Assembly (NCBI RefSeq): GCF_004341165.1
Contig: NZ_SLZR01000004.1
Span: forward strand, 1-64,000
Direction: 5' to 3'
DNA length: 64,000 nt
From: Reinekea marinisedimentorum
GTDB lineage: Bacteria; Pseudomonadota; Gammaproteobacteria; Pseudomonadales; Natronospirillaceae
Shown here in pieces: positions 672-63,611 of this stretch (position 1 is its first letter; each line of letters begins with the position of its first letter). The notes beneath the pieces are model-generated. The model did no database searches, was not told the origin of the DNA, and saw nothing but the letters and a program-made list of their open reading frames with translations. The position numbers were made by a program, and so were the translations under genes.

Positions 672-690
672 TTTAGATTTCTCTAATTTG

Positions 691-843
691 CGGCCCTAGC
701 GGGTCGAACTCTTACGTTCGTGCGGGCATAAATGCCCTGGTTTTGCTACGCAAAACAATCTCTCCGCTTCAGAGAAATAACTGTCTAACGAGTGAAATAG
801 CACTATAAGGGCATAACAATGTGAAATGGCGCGCCCGAGAGAT
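691..843 (+). repeat. Distant copy of the tRNA-Arg-linked ~160-bp repeat
   Basis: This block is closely similar to the tandem units at 7416-7900. It has the same order of landmarks: GGCCCTAGCGGGTCGAAC, the palindrome GGGCAT-AA-ATGCCC, the palindrome TTTTGC-TAC-GCAAAA, AACGAGTGAAATAGCA, and finally TGGCGCGCCCGAGAGAT at 827-843. That last part matches the 3' end of tRNA-Arg except for one missing G. It is the outer boundary of the type VI cassette and a candidate old attachment site. Confidence 0.85.
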
Positions 844-1097
844 TAGATCAAAAATGAGGGAATTCCGAGGATTCGCTCTAATTTAACCTATTAATTTTAT
901 TGTATCTAAAATTCAATGGAGCAAAATTCTTCTGACCACCTTCGTTGTAAGCTTCATATAACCAAAAATACAATTCGACGATTAACAGGACTTCCATTGG
1001 TTGTATTACCTTCTAATGTTGATTCACCAAAAAATGCCTTTTTTTTGGGGGGGAGTAAAAGCGAACATTTTTTACCAACATTGTACCCTTGGACTTG
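844..1097. other. Non-coding AT-rich stretch with a T8G7 homopolymer junction
   Basis: No gene is supported between the repeat copy and the end of the last immunity-like gene. Short open frames here have no recognisable composition or start signals. A run of eight T followed by seven G lies at 1039-1053. It could be a slippage-prone tract or a read/assembly artefact, and no reading frame using it can be supported. Confidence 0.4.
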
Positions 1098-1610
1098 TTA
1101 ACCTAGCTTGCCATCATCATATAGCTTTTGAATATCTAAAAATGTTTCCAGCAAGCCACACTGATCAAAATAGATATCATAAATATCAATACTTTGCTCA
1201 ATATCTGGTGCAATATAGGATGCTCTTTTTCGATTCTCTAAGCTAAACATCATAAGCCCTTGATTTGCGTAATTAGCACCTCTGAATACATAGACTTCAT
1301 TATCTGGATCTAACTGAATAATGTCAGACATGGTTCCGGGCGGATAACCACCTTGATCCGGGCTCAATGCAAACCGAGCCTTAACGCCTAAAAACCATTT
1401 TAAATAAGGCAAGGGCATTTCCAATTGATCAACTAATAACTTACCTCTAGGATCTGGTACTATTGCGATATTGGTAATGCATAAATGGTCATTATAGGTT
1501 GAAACAACCATGTCATTGCTGGGAAAAACCACATCATTAAATCTGCTGTGAACGAGAAAGTCTGGATCAGTATCTGTATAAAGTTTTAATTGCTCTATTA
1601 GATTGACCAT
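1098..1610 (-). CDS. Putative type VI immunity-like protein 2
   Basis: A 170-residue soluble protein with no signal peptide or membrane segment. It is a diverged paralogue of the next upstream gene: DQLEMPLPYLKWFL here against DQLEIPLASLDFIL there. The C-terminal stretch also aligns, with NRK, a Q-S pair and a final Y-x-x-G. It lies 16 bases after that gene as the last gene of the cassette vgrG, effector, immunity 1, immunity 2. Its role is inferred from position: a cytosolic or periplasm-facing protein that neutralises the effector encoded upstream, or an orphan antidote to a related toxin. I do not recognise the family. Confidence 0.65.
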   Translation of the reverse strand: MVNLIEQLKLYTDTDPDFLVHSRFNDVVFPSNDMVVSTYNDHLCITNIAIVPDPRGKLLVDQLEMPLPYLKWFLGVKARFALSPDQGGYPPGTMSDIIQLDPDNEVYVFRGANYANQGLMMFSLENRKRASYIAPDIEQSIDIYDIYFDQCGLLETFLDIQKLYDDGKLG

Positions 1611-1625
1611 AAAATCATCAACCCA

Positions 1626-2105
1626 CTATGCATAAACACCGTTATGATAATTCTTATTTATTTCAATCAGCTTATCGAATAAACCACCATCCATTGTTTC
1701 CTTAAATATCTCTTTAGATTGGTTTAACACTGGATTTATATGTGACTTCCGGTTGAAGTTAGTAATTGAATAGGTCTCTATGCCATAATGAGGGTGAACT
1801 ACTCTGTCGAAAAATATCTTCTCACCATTAACAATAGTTTCATCTGAATTATCTAATCCGCCAAGCCCTCCAAGGCTTTTGGGCAGGTCATAACGTGGAA
1901 TTGTTGTAAGTATGAAATCTAGTGATGCTAATGGTATTTCTAGTTGGTCACTTAAAAATAACCCACCTTTAGTTGTTTCATAACTAAAAAAAACAAGATA
2001 TTCATCAATCACATACAGCGCTTCATAGTCATCAGGGAAGAATCTAACTTTAAATTCAAATATAGGAGACTGTGTTTTAAAATCGATCAGATTAATTTTT
2101 TTCAT
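1626..2105 (-). CDS. Putative type VI immunity-like protein 1
   Basis: A 159-residue, acidic, soluble protein beginning MKKINLIDFK. Its ATG overlaps the effector stop codon by four bases (ATGA), so its translation is probably coupled to the toxin, as is usual for cognate immunity genes. It is related to the following gene over most of its length (the DQLE.PL block and the NRK...QS block). No catalytic motif is visible. The proposed function, binding and inhibiting the C-terminal domain of the adjacent 845-residue protein, is inferred from the gene order. Confidence 0.7.
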   Translation of the reverse strand: MKKINLIDFKTQSPIFEFKVRFFPDDYEALYVIDEYLVFFSYETTKGGLFLSDQLEIPLASLDFILTTIPRYDLPKSLGGLGGLDNSDETIVNGEKIFFDRVVHPHYGIETYSITNFNRKSHINPVLNQSKEIFKETMDGGLFDKLIEINKNYHNGVYA

Positions 2106-4639
2106 GGAGCCTCCACTGGCTGTATAACATCATAGACTTTTATTGCACCCGCAGCTTCCAACTGTTCGATAGTCATAAGCTTATTTTCTACAACAAAAAT
2201 TTCTGCAATGCCTGGATCATTTGCTTTCGAATTGGGCAATAAGCTTTTTGTAAAGCCAGTTCCTAGAAAATGTTCATTTGCGCCTAACGTATTTTGAATT
2301 ACAAATCGGTCATTCCACGCCATCTGGGCATCGACATCACCACCAAATACTTTATTAAGCACTAACACCCGTTGTTTTTCTTTCCAAAGATCCAAACCTA
2401 AACCTTCAGCTTTTTTAAATACAGAAGCGTAGGTATTGACGTAATCATCATTCATTACAGCCTTGATGCGTGCTAGACGTTCAGGCTCCGTACCTTCAAT
2501 TTTCTTGGCAAATCTTGCTGAAAGATTAATCATATTCTCCCATGTAGGGCGGAACATTTCACTTTCAGTAAGTTCTATATACCTTTTACGATCAATAATA
2601 ACCATTGTCTGATCAATGGGTTTACCATCGCTGCCGACTGATTGGTTTACCCCAGCCATTTCAGCTTGCTGTTTAGGACACTTATCCCCTCTTTCTGTCT
2701 GATCAAACCCAGATGACCACATTTTACCACGTGATGGGATGAACACTTCCTTCCCTTTTTCATCTAAAACATGCTTTCCATCGGCGTCAAAAACTTGCTT
2801 CCATTCTAATGGCGCGCCTAAATACCCACCTCTCTTTTTACCTGACTGATAGTTATCCAAATAGCTTGTATTCATTATCCGAGTAACATAGTTATCCCTA
2901 ATTTCTGGGTCACTCACCAATTCAAGCATTTCATCAAGGTTATACTTATGGGTATATTCGCCTAGCTCAAGTAACTCCCTATTGGCTGTTAAAATTTCGT
3001 CCGCCTCATCAAACGTATCCGGATTCACAAATTTATTCTCAATACGTTTCGCGATCCGCATTGTAACTTTACTCGGACCTTCATCCAGCTGCCGAGTCTC
3101 GGGTTCAATTTTAGCCTTTGTTGTTACCTGCGTCTTACCTTCTGGTATCGGTACTGAATGTTCAATAGCTGCATCCAAGTCAATTTTTACACTGGGTGTT
3201 TCAACATCCACTGCACTCAATAGCGTTCTATTGTTATTCAGGTTATTAAGATCACCTGTGGAGCTCTTTATGGCGATATAGGTCATTGCACCCGATATGG
3301 CGGCGGACCGGAAAAGCTCCATCAGACGCTTTAAGCGCTCATCGGGTAAAAGATCTGGATTTTCCATTATTTGGTTGTAGCTATCCAGATGCTCATAGGC
3401 TAATAATGCGCCTTGTAATCCATCCGTGCTAATTTGGCCAATAAGCACTGCCTTGCTCATACCCGAGCCTAGCTTGCTTGCACTGGTTACAGTGGCACCA
3501 ACTTTCCATGCCATTCCGGCACCTGCAAAGAGGTTGCCGACTATGCTTAAGCCATCGAACGCGTCGTCTTTTAAATTACCAAAGCCTTCCTCATGACGCT
3601 GAGCAATATTGATGGTGGCCGCGCCTGTACTGGTGAATATACTGGCCCAAATTGCAGCAGATGCCACTCGGGAGCCGGGCACCGGTGCAATAAAAGTCGC
3701 TACCCCGGCGACAACAGCGGCCCCCAAAGCGGCATAATCCAGCCATTTTGATATTTCATCCCAGGTAGACATCCCATCCGTATCGAACCCACCTTCCAGG
3801 TTCACGCCATATTGGGGCACTCTAAAACTGTAACGAATTCGACCGTCAGGATAACGATTATTGTCATCCCAACTTTCAATGAGCTCTTCAATGGCTTCTT
3901 TATGGCTAACTCCGGATTCTTCATAACTCCCGGTTGTAGAGCGATTAGCTGGATTGGTCCAATCAATTAACCGCCAGGTTGGCTCACCTGCTTCTTCGCC
4001 ATCATCATTTTCTGGTGTGTTATTTATAAGCCAAAGCTTTAATACGGTGCGTGTAGAACGCTCTTCATCAAGGTGGATTGCGTCAACCTGAAACGCTTCT
4101 TTATGCTCTAGTCCCTTCAAATGATCATCGAGGTGAAAGATATAGGCATCCAGATTTTTTACCGTATTATCGTGCTTTTCCCGATCTTCCTCGGTTGCTG
4201 GTGGTTTTTCTTTAGCTATTGCTTTAAGAACTTCCAGATACTTCCTGGTGTTTATTAGCGTCTGAACTGGAGTAGGATCTTCATCATTTGCAGCAGGATC
4301 AAATTCAGACCTGAGAATATTCGTCGCATTATCAACTCGCTGATTTCGAAAATATTTTTGTCTGGAACCATCCGGAAAAGTAACCGTCAATACAATTGTA
4401 TGTAGCCCGGTAAAGCTCCATCGAGCTTTATTCCAATGTCGACCTGTTGGCCCAAGCACATTACTTGGCTGGTACCACCTTGTTGTTGCAGGATCGTTAT
4501 GACAGGCCCATTGAAACCGAGTACCTTCTGGAACAGTATCATCTTCATTCACCAATTCACTACGCATATTCACGAGTGCACCAGGTGCAACTGAATTAAA
4601 ATTAGGGTATGTAACAATTTTAAATTGAGGCTTACTCAC
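2102..4639 (-). CDS. Putative type VI cargo effector with unrecognised C-terminal toxin domain
   Basis: An 845-residue protein whose ATG overlaps the vgrG stop by 8 bases, a typical arrangement for a VgrG-delivered cargo effector. Residues 1-110 look like a beta-rich Ig/PKD-type domain, and 120-290 are mostly charged and helical. Residues 300-460 hold small-residue-rich hydrophobic segments (AALGAAVVAGVATF, then IVGNLFAGAGMAW), a layout common in secreted polymorphic toxins. Residues 500-845 are soluble and probably carry the toxic activity. Visible there are GYLGAPLEW, GKMWSSGFDQ, DKCPKQQAEM and, near the end, HFLGTGFTKSLLP. I recognise none of these as a named toxin family. No signal peptide or PAAR motif is seen. 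The effector call is inferred from context. Confidence 0.7.
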   Translation of the reverse strand: MSKPQFKIVTYPNFNSVAPGALVNMRSELVNEDDTVPEGTRFQWACHNDPATTRWYQPSNVLGPTGRHWNKARWSFTGLHTIVLTVTFPDGSRQKYFRNQRVDNATNILRSEFDPAANDEDPTPVQTLINTRKYLEVLKAIAKEKPPATEEDREKHDNTVKNLDAYIFHLDDHLKGLEHKEAFQVDAIHLDEERSTRTVLKLWLINNTPENDDGEEAGEPTWRLIDWTNPANRSTTGSYEESGVSHKEAIEELIESWDDNNRYPDGRIRYSFRVPQYGVNLEGGFDTDGMSTWDEISKWLDYAALGAAVVAGVATFIAPVPGSRVASAAIWASIFTSTGAATINIAQRHEEGFGNLKDDAFDGLSIVGNLFAGAGMAWKVGATVTSASKLGSGMSKAVLIGQISTDGLQGALLAYEHLDSYNQIMENPDLLPDERLKRLMELFRSAAISGAMTYIAIKSSTGDLNNLNNNRTLLSAVDVETPSVKIDLDAAIEHSVPIPEGKTQVTTKAKIEPETRQLDEGPSKVTMRIAKRIENKFVNPDTFDEADEILTANRELLELGEYTHKYNLDEMLELVSDPEIRDNYVTRIMNTSYLDNYQSGKKRGGYLGAPLEWKQVFDADGKHVLDEKGKEVFIPSRGKMWSSGFDQTERGDKCPKQQAEMAGVNQSVGSDGKPIDQTMVIIDRKRYIELTESEMFRPTWENMINLSARFAKKIEGTEPERLARIKAVMNDDYVNTYASVFKKAEGLGLDLWKEKQRVLVLNKVFGGDVDAQMAWNDRFVIQNTLGANEHFLGTGFTKSLLPNSKANDPGIAEIFVVENKLMTIEQLEAAGAIKVYDVIQPVEAP

Positions 4640-7181
4640 TATAGAACACCTCCGTGTTATCTAAGCTGTCTACCCAACCGCATTTAAGCAATAGCGTTTC
4701 AATAAAGTCTTGAGTATCAGGGTGTTTGAAATTGGCCTGAAAGTGTGAGTCGATGGATCCATATTTAGAATCAAAAATGCTTTTAAGCTCTTTGTAATCG
4801 ACACAGCGCTGTAAACATCGGGCAACTTGCCGTTGCTGCTTTTTCTCGAAGGCTCGATTTAGATCAGCTGCCAGAGACTTCATAAGAAGATCTTCTTCAT
4901 CAGAGTAAATCACTTTACCAGCTTCAAAATAAGGCACACCTTCGAATTCAATAAAGCCGTCATCATTCGAAATACCTTCTGCTTGAAAACCACTCTGACC
5001 TTCAAATCTGGCCTGAACATCCGGCACAGGCGCACCAGATTCGGATGTCACCTTAACTTTAACCGTTCTTACTTGATCTGGCTTATCTCGCTCATACTGT
5101 ATTGCTTCACCTTCGTGCTGAATATTTTCCAGCTCAAGAATTTCAATCTGCCCAACCCCTATCGGCTCAACCGCCGCCCCACTCACCGGTGCATTCGCCC
5201 CCGGCATCACATAACTCACATTCCCGGCAAAGCTGACACCACTCGGCCCACCTAAGGTCACTTTGTTGCCAAAGGCTTTGATGTTGCCGGCGGTATCTAT
5301 CTGGAAGCCACCGGTGCCATTACTGATGGTCATGGTGCCACTGCCGGTACCGGCAATGGTGATGTCGTTCGGTGCCTGTAACCTATAGTTACCACCGCTG
5401 GTTTTATTCAGCTGGCTACCCTGGCTTTTGATGGTGACAGCGCCTTCGGTACGTAGAGTAATGCCCTGGCTTTTGGTTTGCCAGTGCTGGTCGCCTTCGC
5501 TGCTGAAGGTCGTGTTGGCTTTACTGCGCGCAATCTGCTGCTTAGCGGATTGTAAGTGGCGGTTGCCATCGATAGCGACGTTGCTGTTGGTTTTTACTTT
5601 TTCCAGGAACGCGCCACCGTGTTTCTGGATCAGGTTTCCCTGAACGATCCAGCGCTGGTATTGCCCGGCGGTGAGCTTAATGAGGCCGTATTGGGCGGCC
5701 AGCATGATATATTGGCCACTGGTGGCAGCGTTGAGCTCCAGCTTGGTTTGGCCGTCGAACGTTTGCAGCAGTATGTTGGGCAGTTCGTCGTCTAAGGTCA
5801 GTTCGTTCTGGCTGGGGGTAACAATGCGGCCCTGATGTTTGTTGTGGCTGGTGACGGGGCCATCTTGCCCAAACTCACTGGCAAAGCCCATGATGCAGGG
5901 TCGGTTCGGGTCGTTATTTAATAGTGTGACGAGTACCGTACTGCTATCCAGCAGCGGGAAGTGCCAACCGGTGCTGAGCTCCTGATTAGCATTGGCAAAC
6001 GGCACCATGCGTTCAACCGCCGGGCTGGCATTGGTGTGGTTCAGGTGCTCGGTATTGTTGTGGCTAAAGCCCATGCGCAGTTGGTATTGACCGCGATCAT
6101 CCAGATAGGCGTAGCGGTCGGCGGATTCAATTTTCGCCGGAAAGGCCAGTGGCAGCTCGGGCATTGCCGGGAATGTGGGTGCAAAGCCGCTGGCGCGTTT
6201 TAGCAGCGAGGCACGGTTGCTGTACTTTAAACCCAGTTCGGGGTTTTGGGCGTCGTACACCTGCCCTTCGTGCTCAATGGCAACACAGGTTAGGTCATCA
6301 CAGAAGCCATCGTTGCTCCAGTAAACCGGTATGGCACTGGAATGGCCTGTGGCGATAAGCGGGAAGCTGCCCTGAATAAAGAACTGTTCTGAGCTTGCCA
6401 GAGTGTGCTTTTGGTTTTGCCGCTCGGCCTGGGCTTTGGCGCCCTCATTCAACGCTAAGGGGCTTTGGTATGGGTCGTTTGAAGCCACCGCTTTTAAGGG
6501 TTGCGCTGGCCGGCCGTGGTTTTGGTACGAGGCTGCCGGCATTACCGTTTGCCAGGTGCGCGTGAGTGGGGAATCTTTACCGGCCATGGCTTCACGCTTG
6601 GTTTGCTCAATAGAAACGATGGCGGCAGTAAAAGGCGTATGGGCAAAATCGGCCGCGAAGTTAATTTGCTCTTCTTTGCCATCGCTATCGAACCAGAAGA
6701 AGCATCCCAACTCGGCGACTAAGCGCTTAAAAAATGCCAGCTGCGACTCATTAGCCTGCACAAACACCGCGGGTAAGACCGCTTCGCTAACATCGCTGTG
6801 CCAGTGGATTTGCCAGCGGCCATAGCCTAATTCGCTTAACAATTGTTCAATAATTTCGACACGGGAGCGATACATGAACACGCGGGATTGCTGTAAATCT
6901 TGACCTCGCGCCAGGCAAGGCCTTAACAACAATGAGACCTGAGCACCTTCCTGCTCGGCCTGCTGGATATCGCAGGTAAGAGAGCGCAGATTGCCGGTAT
7001 TATCGTGAAAACTTAACTGGGCGCGCTCGCCAATAAGGTTTTGCGCATATATCAGCCGATTTTGATCTTTCAGTGTCACACTAAATTCATAACAATCGCT
7101 GAGTGCTTCTTTGCCTTGAATATGGATAACTGAAAAATGACCAGATGCCAACTGACAACGTACAGACGTTGCTTGGTACAT
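4632..7181 (-). CDS. vgrG: VgrG spike protein of the type VI secretion system with C-terminal extension
   Basis: An 849-residue trimeric spike protein. The N-terminal half carries the gp27-like region (FFKRLVAELGCFFWFD, SQLAFFKR). It is followed by a gp5-like OB fold (RMGFSHNNTEHL, WHFPLLDSSTVLVTLLNNDP) and a repetitive beta-helix rich in G-N-x-T/I repeats to about residue 660. Residues 670-849 are an extra module: a transthyretin/Ig-like beta domain (VTSESGAPVPDVQARFEG) and then a helical tail. Such tails often bind a cargo effector, here the next gene. AAGGA lies 9 bases before the ATG. The 3' quarter is visibly more AT-rich than the core, suggesting module exchange. No other type VI structural genes are in the window, so this is an orphan vgrG cassette. 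Confidence 0.93.
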   Translation of the reverse strand: MYQATSVRCQLASGHFSVIHIQGKEALSDCYEFSVTLKDQNRLIYAQNLIGERAQLSFHDNTGNLRSLTCDIQQAEQEGAQVSLLLRPCLARGQDLQQSRVFMYRSRVEIIEQLLSELGYGRWQIHWHSDVSEAVLPAVFVQANESQLAFFKRLVAELGCFFWFDSDGKEEQINFAADFAHTPFTAAIVSIEQTKREAMAGKDSPLTRTWQTVMPAASYQNHGRPAQPLKAVASNDPYQSPLALNEGAKAQAERQNQKHTLASSEQFFIQGSFPLIATGHSSAIPVYWSNDGFCDDLTCVAIEHEGQVYDAQNPELGLKYSNRASLLKRASGFAPTFPAMPELPLAFPAKIESADRYAYLDDRGQYQLRMGFSHNNTEHLNHTNASPAVERMVPFANANQELSTGWHFPLLDSSTVLVTLLNNDPNRPCIMGFASEFGQDGPVTSHNKHQGRIVTPSQNELTLDDELPNILLQTFDGQTKLELNAATSGQYIMLAAQYGLIKLTAGQYQRWIVQGNLIQKHGGAFLEKVKTNSNVAIDGNRHLQSAKQQIARSKANTTFSSEGDQHWQTKSQGITLRTEGAVTIKSQGSQLNKTSGGNYRLQAPNDITIAGTGSGTMTISNGTGGFQIDTAGNIKAFGNKVTLGGPSGVSFAGNVSYVMPGANAPVSGAAVEPIGVGQIEILELENIQHEGEAIQYERDKPDQVRTVKVKVTSESGAPVPDVQARFEGQSGFQAEGISNDDGFIEFEGVPYFEAGKVIYSDEEDLLMKSLAADLNRAFEKKQQRQVARCLQRCVDYKELKSIFDSKYGSIDSHFQANFKHPDTQDFIETLLLKCGWVDSLDNTEVFYSE

Positions 7182-7208
7182 AAAGTATCCTTACTTTACT
7201 CATGCAAA

Positions 7209-7242
7209 TAGGTTTGATTTTTTAACGCGGGGATTAAACCTA
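7209..7242. promoter_or_regulatory. Inverted repeat upstream of vgrG
   Basis: TAGGTTTGAT at 7209-7218 and ATTAAACCTA at 7233-7242 are complementary at 9 of 10 positions around a 14-base centre. It lies 28-61 bases before the vgrG start, where a promoter or operator would be. There is no U-run, so it is not a clear terminator. The sequence from 7243 to 7415 holds nothing else I can assign. Confidence 0.3.
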
Positions 7243-7415
7243 ACCTCTCCGCCTATGTTCAATTGGCAGCTGTTAGAAATGAGAAGCTGGTCGCGAAATA
7301 TCGGTAGTCGCCTTACTAAAACAATAAGGAGTGGAATTACTCTTCCAGCCATTGAAAACGTTGAGTTTTTTAGAGTTTGGGGATTTAAAACACATTCACT
7401 TCCACACCCAAGGAG

Positions 7416-7900
7416 GCGCGGTTCGCGACCCTTCAGGTCGAATATCTACGTTCGTGCGGGCATGAATGCCCTGGTTTTGCTACGCAAAACAATCTCTCCG
7501 TTTCAGAGAAATAATAGTGTAACGAGTGAAATAGCATTATGCAGGTATAAAAATATGAAATGGCGCGCCCGGAGAGATGCGCTTCGCGGCCCTGGCGGGT
7601 CGAACTTTTACGTTCGTGCGGGCATGAATGCCCTGGTTTTGCTACGCAAAACAATCTCAGCTTCAGAGAAATAACTGTCTAACGAGTGAAATAGCATTAT
7701 GCGGGTATGACAATGTGAAATGGCGCGCCCGGAGAGATGCGCTTCGCGGCCCTAGCGGGTCGAACTCTTACGTTCGTGCGGGCATGAATGCCCTGGTTTT
7801 GCTACGCAAAACAATCTCTCCGTTTCAGAGAAATAGCAGTGTAACGAGTGAAATAGCATTATGCGGGTATGACAATATAAAATGGCGCGCCCGGAGAGAT
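7416..7900 (-). repeat. Tandem array of three ~160-bp repeats derived from the tRNA-Arg 3' end
   Basis: Three head-to-tail units (about 7416-7578, 7579-7738, 7739-7900) lie directly downstream of tRNA-Arg in its direction of transcription. Each starts, on the minus strand, with the last 18 bases of the tRNA including CCA (plus-strand TGGCGCGCCCGGAGAGAT at 7561, 7721 and 7883). About 142 bases of spacer follow, with two perfect short palindromes (GGGCAT-GA-ATGCCC and TTTTGC-TAC-GCAAAA). Spacing of the tRNA-derived ends is 160 and 162 bases. The first-listed unit is the most diverged. A fourth copy lies at 691-843. The design matches what is known of the E. coli tyrT locus (rtT repeats), but at a different tRNA and with different spacer sequence. 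Small cysteine/arginine-containing frames run across the units by chance. Confidence 0.9.
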
Positions 7901-7959
7901 TCGAACTCCCGACCAAGTGGTTCGAAGCCACCTACTCTATCCAGCTGAGCTACGGGCGC
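7883..7959 (-). tRNA. tRNA-Arg (anticodon TCG)
   Basis: On the minus strand a 77-base cloverleaf can be folded. The acceptor GCGCCCG pairs with CGGGCGC. The D arm is GCTC-AGCTGGATA-GAGT, and the anticodon arm is GGTGG-CTTCGAA-CCACT with TCG at positions 34-36. The T arm is GGGAG-TTCGAAT-CTCTC, followed by G and an encoded CCA. TCG reads the arginine codon CGA. The 3' 18 bases recur in every unit of the flanking array, which marks this tRNA as a target of integration or duplication. Confidence 0.95.
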
Positions 7960-7987: not shown

Positions 7988-8016
7988 ATTGTAATAGCGA
8001 GCTTCGCTTTAGTCTA
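7988..8016 (-). promoter_or_regulatory. Promoter of tRNA-Arg
   Basis: On the minus strand TAGACT (8016-8011, 4 of 6 matches to TTGACA) and TACAAT (7993-7988) are spaced by exactly 17 bases. They are followed by a GC-rich discriminator (GGCCGCG) of the sort seen at stable-RNA promoters under stringent control. The tRNA begins 28 bases after the -10 element. Confidence 0.55.
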
Positions 8017-61418: not shown

Positions 61419-63611
61419 TCAACTTCCTTCATGGGTATTATTAGCTTCTAAAAGTTCTGGGTGCTCTTTTTGCAGCTGAAAGTAATACTTTGAAGCCAAT
61501 GTTAACTTTTCCTTTAACTCAGCTACTAAATCTACTAGACCCCTTTCTGATTCAACTTTCTCAGCATATAAGCTCCGTAGTTCGTCCAAATCTATTTGAG
61601 ACTTAGCAAGCATCTTCTGACCCAAGCTAACCGCTCTATCTTTTTCTTCCAGCTTAGCTCTTAGCTCTTCTAATTGTTCCTTCAATGAATGAGCCCAATT
61701 ATTATGCTCTTGGTACCTAGTATGCTCCTGATCACGCTGCTTTGTTACTTCTTCTAGTGAATTTTCTAAATTAACCTTCTCTTCACTTAATGAATTCAAG
61801 TTCTGCTGAAGCTTTCCAATTTTTACAGTAATTACTTCCGCCTCTTCCGTAAGCATTTGGTACTTTTCTTGGAAGCTACTAAGCTCATTGCTTAACGCTG
61901 AATTTTTATCAGTTTTTAGTTTAAGCTCCTGTTCAGTGTGAGCCAATAGCTCCTCTTTCGCACTTAAGGATTGCTCAATTACAGCTAAACGTTCATTAGC
62001 CTGTACGGCCTCAGCTCTCGCAGACTGAAGCTGCTCCGTGGCATCAACCAGCTCCACCTTTAAGGTATTTTTTTCTTCAGATTCTTTCTGGGAAAATAAT
62101 TGAAGTTTATTAATCTTATTTTCCAGCGATTGTTGCTCTTGCGCTGAAGCGAGCAATTTTTGTTCTTTCTCTGCCAAGATATTTTCTAAGCGTGTAACAC
62201 TAGACTTGTACTGAGAGTTTTCAGCTTTCAAACTATCCAGGCTTTGCTTTAGTTCCTTAGCTCCTTCTATCAGAGCTTCTTCACTGGATTTCAGTGTTTG
62301 AATTTGACTTTCAAGTTCGGAAGCTAACGCTTTGAAGGTATATTTTTCTTCGGTCTCTTTCTGGGAAACCGATTGAAGGTCACTAATCTGGTTTACTAGT
62401 GACTTTTGCTCTTGCTTTGAAGCGAGCAGCTTTTGCTCTTGCTCTGCCAGGGTACTTTCTAACCGTGCAACGTTAGACTTGTACTGAGACCTTTCAGCAT
62501 CCAAGCAATTCTGGTTTTGGCTTAGTTCCTTAGATATTTTTTTCAGAGCTTCTTCACTTGATTTCAGAGTTTGAACTTGGTTTTCAAGCTCGGCAACTAA
62601 CGTTTTACCGGCATCGCGTTCTAATTTTAAATTACTCAGCTCTGTTTTAAGAGAGTCGATTTGATCCTTCTGCGATACAAGTAATCCATTAAACTTAGCC
62701 TTTTCTGCTTCTAAGTTCTTGGCTATTTGGTTGGCGTTTTTATCTGCCTGAGTTTGCCTGGCTATAGCATTTTTCTTATCAATTTCAAAAGCAGCTGCTT
62801 TGTTGGTTATTTCCAGCAACTGAGCGCTAAGATTAGATTTATCGAGCTCTAGCTGGTTAATCATCTTTTGCAGTTTAACTTGCTCATCATCGCTTGCCTT
62901 TTTAAGCGCATTATTTTCAACCGCAAAACTTTCACACTTAAGCTGTAATGCCTTGTTTTTCTCTCGAAGTGCTTTTAACTCTAGCTTATTTGTATCTTTC
63001 ACAAAGGTATAGCTTGTAAAGATGGAGCTTTCTTTAGCTTCATGCGCTAGTGCAAAGGCAGCCTTTAACGGCTGAATGTCGTTAAAAGGTACTTCCGCAG
63101 AGGGCATTTCGGCATCATTTATTGAAACAGCCTGTACCACTATTACAGTAAATTTATTTAACCACTCTGCATTTATAGCCGCCAATATGGAATTTTCTGC
63201 ACCGTTCAGTTGCAATACAAGTATGTTTTGATTGCCTTCTTGTAGGCTTACACTTTGCAGTAAATCATTAATGCCTATGGCTTCTACTTCAGCATGCTCA
63301 ACCTTTAGGTTCTTAAACAGCTTTTTAAATGCCAGCGGCTCTACAATACTGCTGAATTGCTGTGGCACAGAATTGTAAAAGGTTACATTTTTGGTTTGCT
63401 CAGCCACAACCTTGTTCACAACGCTTACTGTGCCGGAACCGTTAGTTTTAAGCGATAACTGCTGAGCCACACTTGGGTTAGCTTCCACCAGGTGTATGCT
63501 CTTCGCATTCAGTTGATGGTAGCCTTCAAGTTCGGTACATTGGCCAGCACCTATGTGAATAATAGTGCCTACATTATTCAGCGGTATGTTTAAATTTTTC
63601 AAACTGTTCAT
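61419..63611 (-). CDS. FkbM-like methyltransferase domain with a long coiled coil
   Basis: A 730-residue protein. Residues 1-210 resemble an FkbM-type SAM-dependent methyltransferase: TIIHIGAGQCTELEGYHQL is the nucleotide loop, HLVEANPSVAQQL carries the acidic residue after strand 2, and LVLQLNGAENSILAAI is the later G-x-E motif. Residues 215-715 are an almost unbroken coiled coil rich in E, K, Q, L and A. Two exact-period tandem repeats of 91 residues (13 heptads) lie in it. A SAM domain on a long coiled coil recalls WbdD, the O-antigen chain terminator and ruler of E. coli O9a. A kinase domain is not seen here, so the comparison is by layout only. Confidence 0.75.
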   Translation of the reverse strand: MNSLKNLNIPLNNVGTIIHIGAGQCTELEGYHQLNAKSIHLVEANPSVAQQLSLKTNGSGTVSVVNKVVAEQTKNVTFYNSVPQQFSSIVEPLAFKKLFKNLKVEHAEVEAIGINDLLQSVSLQEGNQNILVLQLNGAENSILAAINAEWLNKFTVIVVQAVSINDAEMPSAEVPFNDIQPLKAAFALAHEAKESSIFTSYTFVKDTNKLELKALREKNKALQLKCESFAVENNALKKASDDEQVKLQKMINQLELDKSNLSAQLLEITNKAAAFEIDKKNAIARQTQADKNANQIAKNLEAEKAKFNGLLVSQKDQIDSLKTELSNLKLERDAGKTLVAELENQVQTLKSSEEALKKISKELSQNQNCLDAERSQYKSNVARLESTLAEQEQKLLASKQEQKSLVNQISDLQSVSQKETEEKYTFKALASELESQIQTLKSSEEALIEGAKELKQSLDSLKAENSQYKSSVTRLENILAEKEQKLLASAQEQQSLENKINKLQLFSQKESEEKNTLKVELVDATEQLQSARAEAVQANERLAVIEQSLSAKEELLAHTEQELKLKTDKNSALSNELSSFQEKYQMLTEEAEVITVKIGKLQQNLNSLSEEKVNLENSLEEVTKQRDQEHTRYQEHNNWAHSLKEQLEELRAKLEEKDRAVSLGQKMLAKSQIDLDELRSLYAEKVESERGLVDLVAELKEKLTLASKYYFQLQKEHPELLEANNTHEGS
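62046..62591 (-). repeat. 273-bp intragenic tandem duplication in the coiled-coil gene
   Basis: Copy one (62319-62591) encodes ELENQVQTLKSSEEALKK and onward; copy two (62046-62318) encodes ELESQIQTLKSSEEALIE and onward. Each is 91 codons, and the frame and heptad register are kept. The copies have diverged, so the duplication is not recent. Confidence 0.8.

Follow-up and report, generated by a model that had tools for sequence, protein, structure and literature searches.

The tandem repeats that follow tRNA-Arg(TCG) in the window, by which we mean the whole 64,000-nt stretch of Reinekea marinisedimentorum DNA analyzed here, are probably a co-transcribed trailer array of the rtT type, amplified by recombination between tRNA tails. 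On balance, and with slightly less assurance, we also favor a wider view in which rtT-like arrays, that of Reinekea included, are one outcome of the entry of ~76-bp four-hairpin elements, spread across the Pseudomonadota, into the loops of structured-RNA genes (tRNA T- and D-loops, tmRNA, 5S rRNA), as a rule next to a copy that is still intact, with the end of the host RNA carried along when the cassette multiplies; the rtT of Escherichia coli would then be a fragment of tRNA-Tyr whose T-loop houses an element of this kind.

The array lies downstream of the tRNA gene, on the same strand, and its units end with the 3' end of that tRNA. TRF describes positions 7418-7900 as a repeat of period 160 (3.0 copies, 90% matches, score 790), and Rfam reports the tRNA and nothing else. 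The parts are as follows, where R2 denotes a covariance model of the Reinekea unit core (32 pairs):

7988-8016, minus strand: sigma-70-like promoter candidate TAGACT-17-TACAAT upstream of the tRNA, of a kind whose count is no better than chance.
7883-7959, minus strand: intact tRNA-Arg(TCG) (ARAGORN; Rfam RF00005, 64.3 bits).
7883-7900, minus strand: the last 18 bases of tRNA-Arg(TCG), exactly ATCTCTCCGGGCGCGCCA, which form the repeated tail.
7721-7882, minus strand: cassette 1, 162 bp, a 144-nt spacer and then a tail copy ATCTCTCCGGGCGCGCCA (7721-7738); R2 match 7730-7822.
7561-7720, minus strand: cassette 2, 160 bp, tail copy at 7561-7578; R2 match 7570-7662.
7418-7560, minus strand: cassette 3, truncated, its last hairpin and tail decayed; R2 match 7409-7500.
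687-843, minus strand: a fourth, displaced copy, spacer and slightly decayed tail (826-843); R2 match 674-766, 68.1 bits.

The exact 18-base tail thus occurs at three sites, in the tRNA itself (7883-7900) and at 7721-7738 and 7561-7578, and cassette 3 carries the decayed form GCCTCCTTGGG. A sequence-only reading had proposed a tandem array generated from the 3' end of tRNA-Arg(TCG), which the period and the exact tails bear out; of the three units of 160-162 bp that it described, the tail positions leave one of 162 bp and one of 160 bp, the third being truncated, and it had missed the copy at 687-843. That copy lies ~6.6 kb downstream of the array, adjoined by a degenerate tyrosine-recombinase fragment on the plus strand (264-671; PF00589, 18.1 bits against a cut-off of 27.1), and the module at 844-7417, between the fourth copy and the array, holds a phage baseplate-hub (VgrG-like) gene and, besides it, an unassigned protein of 845 aa, an arrangement that looks like an array split by a cargo island. 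Elsewhere in the window, TRF finds a 273-bp tandem repeat of two copies, 79% alike, at 62058-62607.

Each Reinekea unit runs from GAGTTCGA through hairpins to ATCTCTCCGGGCGCGCCA. As GAGTTCGA is the 5' half of a T-loop and directly precedes a two-hairpin insert of 20-21 nt, beyond which the match to the tRNA resumes, the unit is a decayed 3' part of tRNA-Arg with its T-loop interrupted at TTCGA^ATC. The duplicated 18-base tail noticed earlier is therefore only half of the matter: the piece is the end of a tRNA split in the T-loop. The relevant parts of cassette 1 are these:

7814-7822, minus strand: 5' strand of the closing helix P0, CGGAGAGAT, complementary to the tail and pairing with ATCTCTCCG in cassette 1.
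7796-7812, minus strand: hairpin P1, GTTTTGC GTA GCAAAAC, double changes at 2 of 7 pairs.
7780-7793, minus strand: hairpin P2, GGGCAT TC ATGCCC, double changes at 5 of 6 pairs.
7739-7759, minus strand: 21-nt insert with two hairpins, CCCGCTAGGGCCGCGAAGCGC, delimited by comparison with the tRNA and flanked by GAGTTCGA (7760-7767) and ATCTCTCC (7731-7738).

In Reinekea relatives the insert reads CCCGAAGGGC-CGCGAAGCGC, as against CCCGCTAGGGCCGCGAAGCGC in cassette 1 of the window. Scored on alignment A2, the proposed folds P0-P5 (the closing helix and five hairpins) comprise 92.9% standard pairs. The two palindromes singled out before (GGGCAT/ATGCCC and TTTTGC/GCAAAA) are present and prove to be stems that covary across the genus, with a signal that is destroyed on sliding the partners; P3-P5 lack such support because they hardly vary. 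In P0 the tail pairs with a strand ~90 nt upstream. Compared with shuffled upstream sequence, this pairing is clearly non-random in G001, in units 1 and 2 of G004, in unit 1 of G006 and in all four E. coli units; in the window it is marginal in cassette 1 (p=0.03) and degraded in cassettes 2 (0.88) and 3 (0.44). In G004 and G006 the helix consists of seven acceptor-side pairs and then a T-stem-like stretch, a mimic of the acceptor and T-stem ending in CCA; a helix of the P0 type could be an RNase P substrate.

Units homologous to that of the window were found in six of seven Reinekea species, at tRNA-Arg(TCG) only: three in the window genome (G000), one in G001, three in G002, three in G004, one and a decayed second in G005 and two in G006; G003 is without any. 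The spacer, whose distribution the sequence-only reading had marked for checking, always follows this tRNA in Reinekea, save for the displaced copy at 687-843. Among 294 Pseudomonadales genomes R2 matches Reinekea alone and at the known places alone (E-values of our home-made models, R1 and R2, are rough), a DNA search of 58 relatives from 46 genera gave no matches outside Reinekea, and an exact-pattern scan for hairpin P3 over genome and viral contigs returned Reinekea and otherwise only tRNA-free contexts, judged to be chance. A second tandem array stands directly downstream of the Arg array in G006 (L005) and G004 (L007); its units start with GAAGCGCATCTCTCC, contain a long imperfect hairpin (GGTGATAGTAATTTGAATGG ... 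CCATTCAAATTTCTATCACC) and have in common with the Arg cassettes the junction sequence and not the tRNA tail.

The hairpin insert supplies a link to other genomes. The 17-nt motif CCCGAAGGGC N0-4 GAAGCGC is exact in four Reinekea relatives (L005-L008, from G006, G005, G004 and G002, respectively) and altered in the copies of the window (CCCGCTAGGG). Only 4 of 369 sampled Gammaproteobacteria genomes contain it, and the sole tRNA-adjacent case among the four, G199, has it behind tRNA-Arg(TCG) in a unit ending in the tail of that tRNA. In the unrelated gammaproteobacterial family to which this unit belongs (the G199 family; 21 species), units follow Arg(tcg), Arg(acg), Glu, Ser(gga), Ser(tga) and other tRNAs, with tails that match the resident tRNA: the tail is ATCCTTCCATGCGCGCCA after Arg(acg), for instance, and ATCCCCCTCTCTCCGCCA after Ser(gga). 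The resident tRNA beats the tail of every other tRNA in 24 of 44 downstream copies, the remainder being ties with same-tail tRNAs, tandem-internal copies or decayed tails. Other copies lie in partial 5' tRNA copies upstream of the intact gene, inside the T-loop of Lys and the D-loops of Ser and Arg, and still others adjoin tmRNA or 5S-like sequence. A candidate correlate on the left side, the flank TTCGA or TTCA tracking the T-loop of the resident tRNA, was not clean (31 agree, 8 disagree, 6 other), and for the G199 family we therefore claim tRNA derivation by identity for the 3' tail only.

From 12 copies of this family, and from no E. coli sequence, we built R1, a covariance model of 76 positions and four hairpins (H1-H4) that shows double changes at 12 of 22 pairs and 97% pairing, a level of covariation reached in none of 500 shuffles. 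R1 matches 20 of the 21 genomes of the family. Of the 91 copies examined there, 67 have a tRNA or tmRNA no more than 500 bp away, and 61 of these 67 are on the strand of the tRNA. G-U pairs outnumber A-C mismatches in the stems by 87 to 22, a count taken over related copies in an alignment fitted to the model, and this excess favors selection on RNA over selection on DNA. GGA loops are frequent in H1 and H4 (L100, L104, L113 and other loci of the family), and rsmX also matches L100, at 39.6 bits and thus below its gathering threshold of 56; judging by these loops, binding of CsrA/RsmA is possible for R1 of the G199 family. A CsrA/RsmA-sponge reading was dropped for the Reinekea array, the loops of which are without GGA.

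The reach of R1 is wide: in a sample of 369 Gammaproteobacteria species from 272 genera, it has matches at E<=0.001 in 164 species and 129 genera, and it also matches 63 of 249 Pseudomonadota, genomes outside the Gammaproteobacteria included, with up to at least 64 copies per genome. Outside the G199 family, an intact tRNA lies within 500 bp at 12 of the 27 best loci, at three further loci tRNA fragments can be made out by eye where the element joins the flank, the remaining loci are dispersed, and the junction is nearly always NGA^. The layout of rtT is found again at tRNAs for Arg, Glu, Ser, Lys, Leu, Pro, Gln, Gly and other amino acids and at tmRNA, the tail following the resident tRNA, so that the general process suspected from the similarity of the Reinekea and E. 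coli arrays is upheld and is wider than had been supposed. Four-hairpin elements stand beside tmRNA in two distant lineages (L162, L172, L216, L217), at the T-loop-like sites GGGTTCA^ATCCC and GGGTTCGA^ATTCCC. A near-full-length tRNA-Ser copy in G365 (L230, ~1430-1610) has a four-hairpin element in its T-loop and an acceptor stem that can still pair. Copies at GGTGGA^ATCCGG in G192 (L233) and G181 (L235) lie in an apparent reading frame of related genes, which indicates that the targets are not RNA genes alone. Within Reinekea, R1 elements proper occur in tandem downstream of tmRNA (G004, G006) and behind tRNA-Ser (G001), and the raw material is thus at hand in these genomes. We found no name or description of the element in Rfam or the open-access literature; an earlier name elsewhere is possible.

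R1 finds all four rtT units of E. coli K-12 (E 3e-8 to 7e-4), and its match ends there fall exactly at GTTCGA^ and at GAGTA^ATCC or GAATA^ATCC. These units run from AAGGTTCGA through hairpins that include CCCGAAGGGCGAAGCGC to ATCCTTCCCCCACCACCA and are the 3' part of tRNA-Tyr, split at the T-loop site that is also split in the Reinekea unit. Conversely, the Rfam RtT model gives weak matches, short of its threshold (E 0.08-0.4), to three units of the G199 family, and these matches fall at the correct positions. In the tyrT-tyrV spacer, strain SK1144 has exactly one unit fewer than K-12, and the difference is bounded by CCA tails, as expected for gain or loss by recombination between the tails. 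rtT is present in 4680 of 5426 E. coli genomes, at 1-9 places each among the matches listed, and the annotated rtT RNA, rttR, has its end at CCA. A viral scan for the motif yielded 54 contigs, nearly all without a tRNA-tail context and two with E. coli-type rtT sequence; a phage BLAST search retrieved one Salmonella record with an annotated RtT and nothing more.

We posit that the array began when an ancestral hairpin element became lodged in the T-loop of an incomplete copy of tRNA-Arg, and that the number of cassettes then rose and fell through recombination between identical tRNA tails. The array would be transcribed from the tRNA promoter, since no convincing terminator intervenes: between the tRNA and the array the minus-strand candidates are only 7814-7834 and 7492-7512, each with a weak T run. 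TACAAT, the downstream half of the promoter candidate, also occurs at the equivalent place upstream of the tRNA in Reinekea relatives. By analogy with rtT, the transcripts may be cut at the CCA tails like pre-tRNA to give structured RNAs of ~160 nt. Two observations weigh on the other side. The weak, terminator-like stem 7814-7834 could stop transcription and counts against co-transcription, and the loss of the closing helix in cassettes 2 and 3 of the window counts against the preferred explanation as a whole.

Confinement to one locus per genome, together with continued covariation, suggests selection on the fold of the RNA itself, and the array most likely serves as a small RNA or as a stable trailer of the tRNA and not as an actively moving element. 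The main rival to such a role is a selfish or neutral origin, which we consider rather unlikely: the hairpin cluster would be a non-autonomous mobile element with a preference for T-loop GA^ATC, possibly moved by an IS200/IS605-like single-strand transposase, and the array would consist of insertion remnants that slippage has multiplied and that do nothing for the cell. The habits of R1 lend this idea its appeal, for R1 is dispersed, with up to at least 64 copies per genome, has NGA before its insertion point in tRNA, tmRNA and 5S as well as at some coding sites, also occurs head to tail, and combines a lack of terminal inverted repeats with hairpins near both ends; the ends of IS200/IS605 elements likewise have hairpins close to both termini. 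Yet the Reinekea core covaries while sitting at a single locus, and the G-U excess in the R1 family favors selection at the level of RNA. A different origin of the tails, as att duplications from tyrosine-recombinase elements integrated at tRNA-Arg(TCG), seems very unlikely; the sub-cut-off integrase relic next to the fourth tail and the VgrG-like module between that copy and the array would fit it, but gene-free cassettes of 142-144 nt are too small for autonomous elements, and the tails always come with GTTCGA and hairpins, which att duplication does not predict.

The E. coli rtT repeats, hitherto an isolated curiosity, gain an anatomy as T-loop-split tRNA fragments. They also gain relatives, in 164 of the 369 Gammaproteobacteria species sampled, and a testable rule by which the targets would be GA^ATC sites in loops of genes for structured RNAs. 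If rtT-like arrays do arise from four-hairpin elements in the loops of RNA genes, they would belong to a widespread class of tRNA-associated hairpin elements, the mobility and RNA products of which are directly testable.

Among known systems, palindromic repeats of the REP/BIME class are short, non-coding, hairpin-rich and repeated, and the Reinekea unit resembles them in all four respects; it differs in having no GTAG-type REP signature by eye, and units of its type are located in genes for structured RNAs and carry copies of tRNA tails. The E. coli leuZ sponge, a tRNA 3' external transcribed spacer, illustrates how a processed tRNA trailer can act as RNA, a possible mode for the Reinekea array. 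With R1 the unit shares small GNA-type hairpin loops and an insert at TTCGA^ATC, which in both lies in an incomplete copy of a tRNA next to the intact one. In contrast to R1, it lacks the full H1-H4 order and the GAGTA end and is found at one tRNA only, whereas R1 copies are dispersed; R1 does not match it even with filters off, and its membership of the R1 family cannot be demonstrated. The closest parallel is RtT (RF00391), known for a processed ~170-nt RNA from a tRNA operon: in both, tandem units follow a tRNA and terminate in the 3' end of that tRNA with CCA, and the T-loop is split at TTCGA^ATC. The tail of rtT pairs with an upstream strand, as do the tails of G001, G004 and G006 and, marginally, that of cassette 1 of the window. 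The motif CCCGAAGGGC..GAAGCGC precedes the tail in rtT and, in exact form, in the Reinekea relatives, the copies of the window having it altered; the spacer, initially taken to be unrelated to that of rtT, is not entirely so. The Reinekea unit differs from RtT in its tRNA and genus, has the extra hairpins P1 and P2 before the T-loop site and is without H1 and H2 beyond that site. The Rfam RtT model gives no match to the array up to E=10 (E. coli controls, 133-138 bits), and since R1 misses it as well, common descent of its hairpins with those of rtT rests on position and the 17-nt motif. We class the Reinekea array, which is not a proven member of the R1 family, as probably rtT-like in its working and as a variant of the rtT kind.
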